Positions 31,734-54,542 of a stretch of 64,000 bases of DNA are shown here, in pieces. Below the pieces are notes generated by a model. That model saw only the letters and a program-made list of their open reading frames with translations, was not told the origin of the DNA and did no database searches. The position numbers and the translations under genes are program-made. The first letter of the stretch is position 1. Each line of letters opens with the position of its first letter. The DNA is taken from NCBI RefSeq assembly GCF_003939025.1, contig NZ_RQIH01000005.1:1-64000 (forward strand), read 5' to 3'. This stretch comes from Rhizobium sophoriradicis (GTDB lineage: Bacteria > Pseudomonadota > Alphaproteobacteria > Rhizobiales > Rhizobiaceae).

Positions 31734-31818
31734 GCCCCATTGGCGGAATTGGTAGACGCGCTCGACTCAAAATCGAGTTTCGAAAGAAGTGCTGGTTCGA
31801 CTCCGGCATGGGGCACCA
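31734..31818 (+). tRNA. tRNA-Leu (anticodon CAA)
   Basis: The 85-nt sequence folds as a class II tRNA. The acceptor stem is GCCCCAT / ATGGGGC, the D arm contains GGCGGAATTGGTAGACG, and the anticodon stem CTCGA / TCGAG has the loop CTCAAAA, giving anticodon CAA (reads UUG). The variable arm is long, the T loop is GGTTCGACTCC, and the 3' CCA is encoded (31816-31818). Confidence 0.95.
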
Positions 31819-31944
31819 GCCTACGCTCTGTGAGCTTCGGCTCGGCGAGCCGAAGCTTACAGAGCGTAGGCTGTCGCGCCGTAGTTCCGTCAGGAACGAA
31901 GGCGGACTGGTTTCGACCAGCAGCGCCTCGATCCCGATACGGGA
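31819..31944. other. Run of four consecutive stem-loops behind tRNA-Leu
   Basis: Directly after the tRNA CCA end there are four hairpins. (1) 31819-31871: 25-bp arms GCCTACGC...GGCTC with one G.U pair and a 3-nt GGC loop. (2) 31877-31904: CGCC, 3x3 internal loop, GTTCC, loop GTCA, GGAAC, GGCG. (3) 31907-31920: CTGGT-TTCG-ACCAG. (4) 31932-31944: TCCCG-ATA-CGGGA. No ORF fits. It could be a structured RNA, a processed tRNA trailer, or a mobile palindromic element. The first hairpin has no T tract of a normal terminator. Confidence 0.7.
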
Positions 31945-40644: not shown

Positions 40645-40787
40645 CTCCCTCATTCCTGTGCACGTCACAGGAATCCAGCCACCGCGCGTCCGCGCGGTGA
40701 ATAACAAAATCCGACGTTCAAAAGAGTCTCCCGCGCCCAAGGACTTGGGCGCACTGGATTCCTGTGACGAGCACAGGAATGAGGGAG
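40645..40787. repeat. Palindromic element with 34-bp arms and two internal hairpins
   Basis: Outer arms 40645-40678 and 40754-40787 are complementary with a single mismatch (CTCCCTCATTCC...GAATCCAG). Inside are two hairpins: ACCGCGCG / CGCGCGGT (40681-40698) and GCGCCCAAG / CTTGGGCGC (40733-40752). The structure is a cruciform or three-way RNA junction. It resembles a MITE or REP-like intergenic element. The ORF crossing it has no coding character. Confidence 0.85.
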
Positions 40788-40863
40788 GTGAGGTAAGCGG
40801 CTTGAGGACGCACCCCGACGGGGGGTGTGTCAGTATGCCGGGGCGAATTTGGCGAGAAGGCCA

Positions 40864-40974
40864 ACCCCACCCTCAGTCATCCCAGGGCTTGACCCGAGGA
40901 TCCATCCTCCTAACCGCTGACGGATGCGGTGTGGATGCTCGGGTCAAGCCCGAGCATGACGGAGAGTGGGGTGG
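40864..40974. repeat. Second imperfect palindromic element
   Basis: Arms around 40864-40906 and 40932-40974 share AACCCCAC, GTCAT, GGGCTTGACCCGAG and ATCCA in inverted order. The right arm is itself a hairpin TGCTCGGG-TCAAG-CCCGAGCA (40936-40956). From memory, the GGGTCAAGCCCGAGCATGACGG motif recurs between genes across Rhizobiales. It lies 31 bp before the cobalamin adenosyltransferase gene. Confidence 0.75.
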
Positions 40975-52738: not shown

Positions 52739-53281
52739 TTAGGCGTCGCCGGTCACTACGCCGACGAAGGGCAATTCACGAAAAGCATAGGCGACATCCA
52801 TGCCGTAGCCGACGACGAAATAGTCGGGGCATTCGAAGCCGACATAATCGGCCTCCAGCTTTTCCTTGCGCTTGACGCGCTTGTCGAGCAGCACGGCGAT
52901 CGTGACGTTGCGTGCGCCACGTTCGAACAGCAGCTCCTTGGCAAAAAGCAGCGTCCGGCCGGATTCGAGAATATCGTCGATCAACAGGACATCGCGGCCA
53001 TGCACATCGCTGTCGATATCCTTGACGATGCGCACGCCCTGCGAGACCGTACCGCTGCCATAGCTCGACAGCGTGATGAACTCGACCTCCGGGGCAAGCC
53101 CGGTGTCATGCAGGGCGCGGATCAGGTCAGCGGCGAAAATGAAGGAACCCTTGAGCACGGCGATGACGAGCAGGTCCTTGGTCGGGCCGTTGGCGATCTC
53201 CCGCGCCATCGAATGATTGCGTTCGGCGATCTGTTCGGCGGTGAAGAGCGGCTCGATATTTTTTCCACGCACGACAGGCAT
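52739..53281 (-). CDS. hpt: Hypoxanthine phosphoribosyltransferase
   Basis: The product is 180 residues from ATG 53281 (MPVVRGKNIEPLF). It salvages hypoxanthine and guanine to IMP and GMP. The PRPP-binding motif VLLIDDILESGRTL and the base-binding Lys region (PDYFVVGYGMD) are present. The ORF extends 13 codons upstream without support. It is separated from the next gene by a 273-bp palindromic element. Confidence 0.95.
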   Translation of the reverse strand: MPVVRGKNIEPLFTAEQIAERNHSMAREIANGPTKDLLVIAVLKGSFIFAADLIRALHDTGLAPEVEFITLSSYGSGTVSQGVRIVKDIDSDVHGRDVLLIDDILESGRTLLFAKELLFERGARNVTIAVLLDKRVKRKEKLEADYVGFECPDYFVVGYGMDVAYAFRELPFVGVVTGDA

Positions 53282-53413
53282 AAGGCTTGCTCCATAAAAA
53301 GAAGGGTAAGCCGTTAGCACATATGCGAGCGTGAAACAGCCTCGCCAGCCAGGAAATTAACCGGATTAGCGCGATCTGTGGCAGGAAAGTCGGCGATGAC
53401 CCATCCGGCGCGC

Positions 53414-53686
53414 TAGAGCCTTTCCTGGTTAGATTGAAGCATTCTGTTGGCTCAAACGGAGTCGGATGGTCGACCGGCCGGCGCGCGTCGTAGCCCAGTT
53501 CTACGGCCAAGCCGGCCGGTCGAACAGCCGGCCCGTTTCAGCCAACCCGAAGGGCCGGGCATCTTTCCGCCAGGATCAGAGGCGATCGGCTCGGACGTAC
53601 CAAGGGGTATGCCCATCGCCAATCGCCTCTGCCCTGACGAAAACCTGCTCCGGCAGAATGCTTCAATCTAACCCGGAAAGGCTCTA
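53414..53686. repeat. 273-bp structured palindromic element (MITE-like)
   Basis: Terminal arms 53414-53446 and 53654-53686 are 33 bp, complementary with one mismatch, and begin and end with TA. Internal inverted repeats are nested: GACCGGCCGGC / GCCGGCCGGTC (53472-53482 with 53511-53521), CGTAG / CTACG, CCGGCCC / GGGCCGG, and AGAGGCGAT / ATCGCCTCT near 53579-53631. The stop codon of the adjacent gene at 53684 is supplied by the right arm. The 73-codon ORF inside is not credible. Confidence 0.85.
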
Positions 53687-54337
53687 AGGCAGGAACGATA
53701 GCCGGACCTCTGGCACTGTTCCGCCGGCATGCTGAACGCGCGCCGAAAAGCCCCGGCTCTGGCCGCCATAAATGACGTCGACAGGCGGGTTGATGACGAC
53801 GCTCGCGGTCAACCGCTCGTCGGTCACGAGATCGGCGCGGATCGGCTGCAGCGTCTGCGTCGTGCCGCTGTCGTTCTCGATGATGCCGTTGATGACGAGC
53901 ACGCGCATGCCGTTCGCATCACGCGGCGTCACCGTCACATGGGTGAAATGCAGCGGCGCTCCGGAATAGGCGCTCTGGTTGGAAAAGCCGGAAAAACCAC
54001 CGGCAAGTCCGAAGACGAGCACGGCGATGGCCAGCACGAGCGTCGCGAAGCTGCGCAATGAGGCGCGCTGCAGCCAGGATTCCGCAGCCCGTAGCCCAGA
54101 AGCCGCCATCGCGAGCATGAACGGGGGCTCTGCGGCGCGTGCGGTGGCCGCGCGCCTGCGGTTGTCATTATTGGTTCTGGCGTTGAACTCCTTCGGTCGA
54201 ACGCTGCCGAGCGTGACGAATTCGGCGTCAGCAATATCGACAGGGCGCGGATTGCGGAACGGGCGGTTTGCGGGTTCGGGCGGCAGGAAATCATAGGCCC
54301 GGCCCGGTGTCCGGCGGCTGAAGAAGGATGCTTCCAT
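53684..54337 (-). CDS. Membrane protein of unknown function, divergent from ftsE
   Basis: The product is 217 residues from ATG 54337 (MEASFFSRRTPGRAYDF), with GAGGAAG upstream. A Pro-rich cytoplasmic N-terminus is followed by one membrane helix (about 95-117) and a C-terminal beta-rich periplasmic domain (HFTHVTVTPRDANGMRVLVING), which resembles the DUF3426-like domain of proteins found beside ftsE in alphaproteobacteria. No zinc-ribbon is visible. Its TAG stop lies in the palindromic element. Confidence 0.75.
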   Translation of the reverse strand: MEASFFSRRTPGRAYDFLPPEPANRPFRNPRPVDIADAEFVTLGSVRPKEFNARTNNDNRRRAATARAAEPPFMLAMAASGLRAAESWLQRASLRSFATLVLAIAVLVFGLAGGFSGFSNQSAYSGAPLHFTHVTVTPRDANGMRVLVINGIIENDSGTTQTLQPIRADLVTDERLTASVVINPPVDVIYGGQSRGFSARVQHAGGTVPEVRLSFLP

Positions 54338-54542
54338 GGTGGCTTCCTCGCAGATGTCCACATGGTTTCGCTGCCAGGGGAAATCTGGCATTGAAACGAA
54401 TCCTGCTCAGTCGTAAATTTTAATGGTTAATGCTTCGCAAAGATCGCCATCAAACGGGCGTCTTTCCGGCAAAATTTACCGGCTGTTAACGGTGTTGGTT
54501 AACAAGTCGCACGGTGAAACCAAGAACAGACTGAGCTGCCCG

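Follow-up and report, generated by a model that had tools for sequence, protein, structure and literature searches.

The 273-bp palindrome at positions 53414-53686 of the window, by which we mean the whole 64,000-nucleotide stretch analysed here, very probably belongs to a family of non-autonomous palindromic MITEs of Rhizobium that is moved in trans by a transposase of the IS630 family (Tc1/mariner superfamily). Judged from sequence, every MITE feature that was examined is present: the element has no transposase of its own, carries terminal inverted repeats, appears to duplicate a TA target and occurs in dispersed copies. Sequence comparison shows that the element is multicopy, that its ends are similar to the ends of IS630 elements in the same hosts, that its targets read YTAR with a TA on either side, and that close relatives exist with and without it at a given site. 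This kind of element is well known. No paper naming this Rhizobium family was found in the open-licence literature, which does not show that the family is unpublished.

Architecture of the palindrome

The terminal inverted repeats are 33 nt each and lie at 53414-53446 on the forward strand (TAGAGCCTTTCCTGGTTAGATTGAAGCATTCTG) and at 53654-53686 on the reverse strand, where the right repeat is the reverse complement of the left. They pair at 32 of 33 positions (97%), bearing out the preliminary description of 33-bp arms with a single mismatch. The first TA of the left repeat and the outer TA of the right one would be the two copies of a duplicated target. Inside the arms lie inner hairpin A (TTGGCT...AGCCAA; 53447-53546, element positions 34-133), a junction (53547-53557) and inner hairpin C (CCGGGCA...TGCTCCGG; 53558-53653, start approximate, element positions ~145-240). 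The hairpins are indeed nested as first described, but not as three equal sets, since two are large (A and C) and the one between them is tiny. The junction marks the place where a module B of ~84 bp, absent from the focal copy, sits in the 355-357-bp class of copies; in an alignment of 11 own-genome copies module B showed, by eye, two further small hairpins. The DNA fold of 53400-53700 reached -105.7 kcal/mol compared with -54.5 +/- 3.9 for shuffles (z -13.3), a value equalled by none of 100 shuffled sequences.

Only two TA-ended palindromes in the whole 64-kb window passed an arm-pairing test (15 of 18 positions). One is 53414-53686, which appeared in two registers, and the other is a 47-bp hairpin at 31822-31868; when the window was base-shuffled five times, the test gave a single chance pair. 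The 47-bp hairpin lies shortly 3' of the tRNA gene at 31734-31815 and may be its terminator. That tRNA, at 31734, is also the sole match of the window to Rfam at gathering scores, no RNA family being found at 53414-53686. A transposase gene inside the element was likewise not found, the frames of the focal copy (73-127 aa) having no Pfam match. In 58 of the 74 copies a 74-aa frame stays open for 74 codons or more, so the element may still encode a short peptide. A GANTC site (GAGTC) at 53459-53463 in hairpin A is kept in most aligned copies, with about one such site expected by chance per 273 bp; the CIR elements of Caulobacter likewise bear a GANTC methylation site, according to the part of PMC2229807 that is available.

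The window holds further repeats. The one at 40645-40787 (CTCCCTCATTCCTG...CAGGAATGAGGGAG) had been likened to the element in architecture and set apart in sequence. The architectural likeness stands and does not extend to kinship, as this is a different family without TA at its ends; it has 18 further near-full-length copies in its own genome at 78-90% identity, plus shorter pieces. Following it, another palindromic-looking repeat (CATCCCAGGGCTTGACCCGAGGATCC...) was seen by eye at 40800-40960.

Copies, modules and distribution

A search of the own 6.66-Mb genome for the arm with up to three mismatches, as the preliminary description had proposed, returned 26 occurrences (none for the reversed control pattern) and established the element as multicopy. 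These form 11 complete copies (22 arms), six of 272-273 bp and five of 355-357 bp, plus four single arms; BLAST added one further, more decayed arm on contig C65. The other five copies of the 273-bp class are 95-97% identical to the focal copy. Copies are thus many and their position varies, contrary to the case the preliminary description had allowed for, in which there is no second copy, or gene length is unchanged and the position fixed in all relatives.

Matches were found in 22 of 61 related genomes, all of them among the 37 of the genus (own genome included; three with a single weak match), and in none of the 24 genomes of other families. An arm-like pattern for IS-like inner ends matched 70 of the 148 genomes of the genus. 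In two or more of these (G080, G083) the match was solely an IS630-type end, and the other matches listed were mainly element copies. A separate scan for the arm gave, among the matches listed, Rhizobium species of the leguminosarum-etli-phaseoli group, and the host is probably a member of it too. Of the 157 plasmid records that megablast matched to the element, 148 are from Rhizobium, 8 from Sinorhizobium and 1 from Agrobacterium; a more sensitive search raised the total to 182, with 168 from Rhizobium, 12 from Sinorhizobium and one each from Agrobacterium and Martelella. A phage origin was considered and rejected, phage sequences giving no match at E 1e-5.

Across 223 loci, 157 arm pairs were recovered, 155 of them shorter than 400 bp. 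Over 114 flank-distinct sites, the classes were A+C (273 bp) at 75 sites, A+B+C (~356 bp) at 19, A and C with another middle (~295 bp) at 10, and others, including forms with A or C alone, at 10. Three 165-bp relatives carry one large hairpin without the other, A without C in L146 and L159 and C without A in L170. At L215:5615-5886 the shared arms enclose an unrelated interior, perhaps a sister element. An autonomous parent sharing the complete arms was considered among these pairs and rejected, the only two longer than 400 bp being L049 (827 bp) and L141 (1599 bp). At L141:1269-2867 the element ends surround a long insert with one scanned frame of 226 aa, membrane-like by eye and matching no family, and at L049:733-1559 they surround an insert with a short frame that looks lipoprotein-like by eye.

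Target sites and unoccupied alleles

The target was examined at the same 114 sites, which were kept from 156 elements of up to 460 bp, longer elements being left out. A terminal TA occurs on the left in 105 and on the right in 104; C or T precedes the element in 108 and A or G follows it in 104, giving a YTAR consensus. The targets reconstructed for the 95 sites with TA at both ends were CTAG (35), CTAA (21), TTAA (20), TTAG (9) and others (10). IS630 itself reportedly targets the TA of a favoured CTAG (Tenzen and Ohtsubo 1991).

Unoccupied alleles were sought for seven occupied plasmid loci, reading one to three unoccupied relatives per locus, picked by hand, and leaving out L217. One of the seven is exact at every base: at L219 the TA-element-TA is replaced in L336 by exactly one TA. 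The flanks of L218 fit a single TA in L341-L343, the left copy in L218 now reading AA, and L221 is length-exact against L335 and L337, whose empty alleles read CA at the target. L216 is two bases off, being longer than L333, and differs more from a second empty allele, L338. L222 had no unoccupied record among the matches listed and L223 gave no alignment, so neither yielded a usable empty site. The remaining locus, L220 (strain N731), faces TAGTCTA in the 99.6% identical unoccupied allele L334 (N871), while the more distant and loosely aligned L339 and L340 appear to have one TA there. Since plain insertion into TAGTCTA could not have given the occupied allele, this sequence fits a remnant of imperfect excision, in which a single base from one end and two from the opposite end would have remained. 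Occupied and unoccupied states thus vary between near-identical plasmids, and the alleles support a duplication of the TA target upon insertion. For the focal insertion no base-exact unoccupied allele was found, the nearest (L062) lacking 19 bp beside the stop.

Insertion at stop codons between converging genes

Gene context was read with a home-made codon-score caller, run alike on the flanks of the element and on a 767-kb element-free control. The 114 sites were reduced to 104 and then 102 by dropping those with a flank below 400 bp and those not bordered left and right by called genes. At 48 of 102 sites, five of them at both ends, the end of the element forms the stop of a gene, compared with stop codons at 97 of 932 control YTAR sites outside coding interiors (10%; odds ratio 7.7). 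When sites with similar flanks are merged, the terminal TAG is the stop of the neighbouring gene at 43 of 95 (odds ratio 7.1). The neighbours converge at 57 of 102 sites as against 95 of 615 control gene pairs, and inside converging gaps alone stops are formed at 36 of 57 sites versus 31 of 114 (odds ratio 4.6, p ~1e-5). The YTAR preference explains why stops are usable and does not fully explain the excess in converging gaps.

The overlap between gene and element is narrow, 53 gene 3' ends reaching into it by exactly 3 nt and four by 19-24 nt, which indicates that mostly stops are hit and that genes are not cut at random. For five plasmid genes the annotated length with the element was the same as in a close unoccupied relative in every case (612, 924, 1194, 912 and 1338 nt); two more distant relatives of the 1194-nt acyltransferase gene measure 1146 and 1161 nt.

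Palindrome upkeep and a possible role at 3' ends

This gene context might also be read as the work of a part that functions at 3' ends, either as a bidirectional terminator or as a hairpin that stabilises mRNA, and is selected between converging genes. We consider it unlikely that this is mainly what the element is, a role at mRNA 3' ends as such being possible. The frequency of converging neighbours speaks for it, as does the conservation of the stems, which diverge by 2.0% at paired and 9.3% at unpaired positions (about five-fold less in stems). In 74 copies aligned over 98 consensus pairs (L215 having been left out of the 75-row alignment for the other interior between its arms), 6,844 of 7,247 cells are Watson-Crick. 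Double compensating changes occupy 74 cells at 16 pairs, compared with averages of 19.3 and 3.3 in shuffles (at most 30 and 8) and with 2-9 double cells at 2-8 pairs in slid-partner controls. The consensus structure was predicted from the tested alignment and the shuffles keep relatedness, so that this excess is upper-bound evidence.

The details fit such a part less well. Compensation falls mostly in the outer arms (50 cells at 6 pairs), then in hairpin A (22 at 8), with hardly any in hairpin C (just 2 at 2). Broken Watson-Crick pairs comprise 41 G-U and 41 A-C cells (9:11 for the arms, 25:14 for hairpin A and 7:16 for hairpin C), and their equality gives no overall sign of selection on one RNA strand. 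The element contains no promoter-like site and a lone, weak terminator-like one, where shuffles give 0.7, and its presence differs among near-identical plasmids. Moreover, the pneumococcal RUP and IS are also enriched between converging genes, which is read as tolerance in the part of PMC3049150 available.

The arms of one copy pair with each other at 31.9 of 33 positions on average over the 74 copies and at 31.0 with the arms of other copies. Template-switch repair of imperfect palindromes, an established mechanism, would yield the same pattern of stem conservation. Upkeep of the palindrome at the DNA level is at least as likely a cause of that pattern as a role of the RNA.

Relation to IS630 ends

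The ends of the element were compared with 81 IS630 (DDE_3) loci, a set that includes repeats, overlaps and other families, and with 60 control loci. Paired TA-flanked ends 1046-1087 bp apart were found at eight of the 81 IS630 loci, seven from the genus and L266 from another family; they start with TAGAGC in seven and TAGAGT in L264, and five other IS630 loci have TAGTGG or TAGGCT ends. The best single end matches the first 30 nt of the element at 21-24 positions in 23 of 81 IS630 loci (24 once, in L262 of another family; 23 eight times, 22 nine times and 21 five times), and at 16-20 in the remaining 58. Control loci score 16-20 in 57 of 60; the exceptions are L059 and L069, where the element itself is present, and L228 with an IS630-type end. 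The similarity spans the outer TAGAGC and the inner GAAGC blocks and reaches at most 23 of 30 in the genus; no closer IS630 end was found there among the 81 loci. The preliminary description had called for a transposase with matching inverted repeats, and the outcome is partial, as related IS630 ends were found and an exact partner was not. The own genome itself gave just two partial DDE_3 matches. At L278, two overlapping frames encode DDE_3 and a helix-turn-helix, and the longer passes the NCBIfam IS630 model with the shorter below cut-off, so that L278 scores as a predicted IS630 transposase. An IS630-family element studied elsewhere duplicated TA in the normal way in 34 of 39 products, its cleavage on supercoiled DNA falling two bases inside the 5' ends, as reported in the accessible portion of PMC2170065.

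Movement by an IS5-family (IS427/ISL2-like) transposase in place of IS630 appears improbable. Paired ends were found at six of the 60 control loci, all six IS5. The IS5-type locus L243 has TAGAGCC-type ends (TAGAGCCTGACC / TAGAGGCTGACT) 1037 bp apart, and some IS5 elements choose YTAR targets. The arm, however, agrees with IS630 ends at 21-24 of 30 positions including the inner GAAGC block, whereas the best end among 30 IS5 loci scores no higher than 20, save for L228 with its IS630-type end.

A REP/RAYT-type or RIME-type palindrome would equally be multicopy and mostly intergenic, and RIME elements of rhizobia are said to be intergenic mosaics. Such an origin in place of a MITE is very improbable, as it accounts poorly for long terminal inverted repeats with TA duplication. 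RIME are common in S. meliloti, but just 12 Sinorhizobium plasmid records match the element in the more sensitive search, and the one from S. meliloti among the matches listed is weak, covering 36% of the query at 76%. The element, with 273 bp and TAGAGC ends, also lacks the GTAG/CGTC-tagged 20-40-bp unit of REP described in the available part of PMC3733652.

The gene at 53684 and its surroundings

The gene at 53684-54391 on the reverse strand, which has no Pfam match, ends in a TAG (53684-53686) formed by the last bases of the element, as the preliminary description had observed. Downstream, a phosphoribosyltransferase gene (Pfam PF00156) lies at 52739-53281 on the reverse strand, its start taken at an ATG conserved in relatives and its frame open to 53320. 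A protein search for the 53684 gene matched 37 of 61 genomes (own included), and the locus was read in 29 of the 36 relatives. The orthologue ends at the same codon, directly after LSF[L/M/A/Q]P, in 28 of these 29, the exception being L082 without a stop there, and none of the 29 carries the element in the gap that follows. The stop-to-next-gene gap is 408 bp in the focal genome and 117-141 bp in the nine closest measurable relatives, an excess of the size that a 271-bp insertion predicts. In L063 no further gene was reached within 1500 bp, and the arm scores at best 16 of 30 in that locus, a background value.

The preliminary description had offered two readings, that the element entered and truncated this gene or that it lands at stop/TA sites, and had suggested looking for a longer C-terminus in relatives without it. 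Landing is the part that stands; truncation, for which it can be said that the TAG comes from the element, has practically no chance of being right and is refuted by the stop shared among 28 of 29 relatives, all the more as it would spread the overlaps noted above over three frames in place of 53 at exactly 3 nt and four at 19-24 nt.

Other sequences were seen at the same stop. In other Rhizobium genomes, L077 and L083 have unrelated TA-ended palindromes there (TAAAGCGTG...CACGCTTTA and TAGAACGGTTCC...GGAACCGTTCTA), and L063 has a longer insertion starting TAGAGCGCAC. The stop of these orthologues is perhaps a recurrent landing site.

Proposed mechanism and significance

For the IS630-driven MITE that we favour, we suggest that the transposase attaches to the ~30-bp ends and, after cutting, inserts the element into a TA. 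TAG or TAA stops preceded by C or T are YTAR sites, and insertion there would put a new TAG at the edge of the element, so that gene length is kept. Insertions elsewhere in genes or at promoters would presumably be lost, leaving copies at gene 3' ends and mostly between converging genes. The inner hairpins would be passenger modules, the palindromes being maintained by transposition, template-switch repair or both. A more speculative extension, which we would entertain only tentatively, is that transposase or host machinery steers the element to stops, where TAG-tipped arms would make each insertion mend the gene it hits, converging genes would be separated with nothing lost, stacked hairpins would shield each of them from transcription of the other, and modules or foreign stretches such as the 1.6 kb of L141 and the 0.8 kb of L049 would ride along.

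The MITE reading would account for a conspicuous repeat of Rhizobium genomes and provides a natural collection of insertions that spare genes and can be compared with their empty alleles. It offers a quantitative and testable link between TA/CTAG-type insertion and stop codons, and it counsels caution in annotation, as an inserted repeat supplies the apparent stop of many Rhizobium genes.

Comparison with known repeats and insertion sequences

Among rhizobial repeats, RIME and the Sm repeats are, as far as their partial descriptions go, repeated and intergenic like the element, and RIME are called mosaic. Their distribution differs from that of the element as far as plasmids show, and the separation is made by description. 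The Correia/NEMIS and CIR repeats share a terminal TA with the element. CIR are alphaproteobacterial and consist of two long inverted repeats and a linker; they are listed without terminal inverted repeats, unlike the element, in the portion of PMC2229807 at hand, and are again set apart by description. IS630 and ISY100 (IS630-Tc1-mariner family) resemble the element in their TA duplication (PMC2170065, in the part available), and IS630 copies in Rhizobium resemble it in ends of ~30 bp that in several start with TAGAGC. They differ in carrying a transposase, of which the Rhizobium element has none.

By analogy, and within what the available text describes, the RUP of Streptococcus pneumoniae is the closest precedent. 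It is a MITE proposed to be moved by IS630-Spn1. Like the element, it lacks a transposase, has terminal inverted repeats that resemble the ends of an IS630 in the same host, targets TA and is enriched between converging genes (PMC2229807, PMC3049150, in the parts accessible). The likeness is one of description, RUP being simple and 107 bp long, whereas most copies of the Rhizobium element measure 165-357 bp and contain nested, modular hairpins between ends of ~33 bp.
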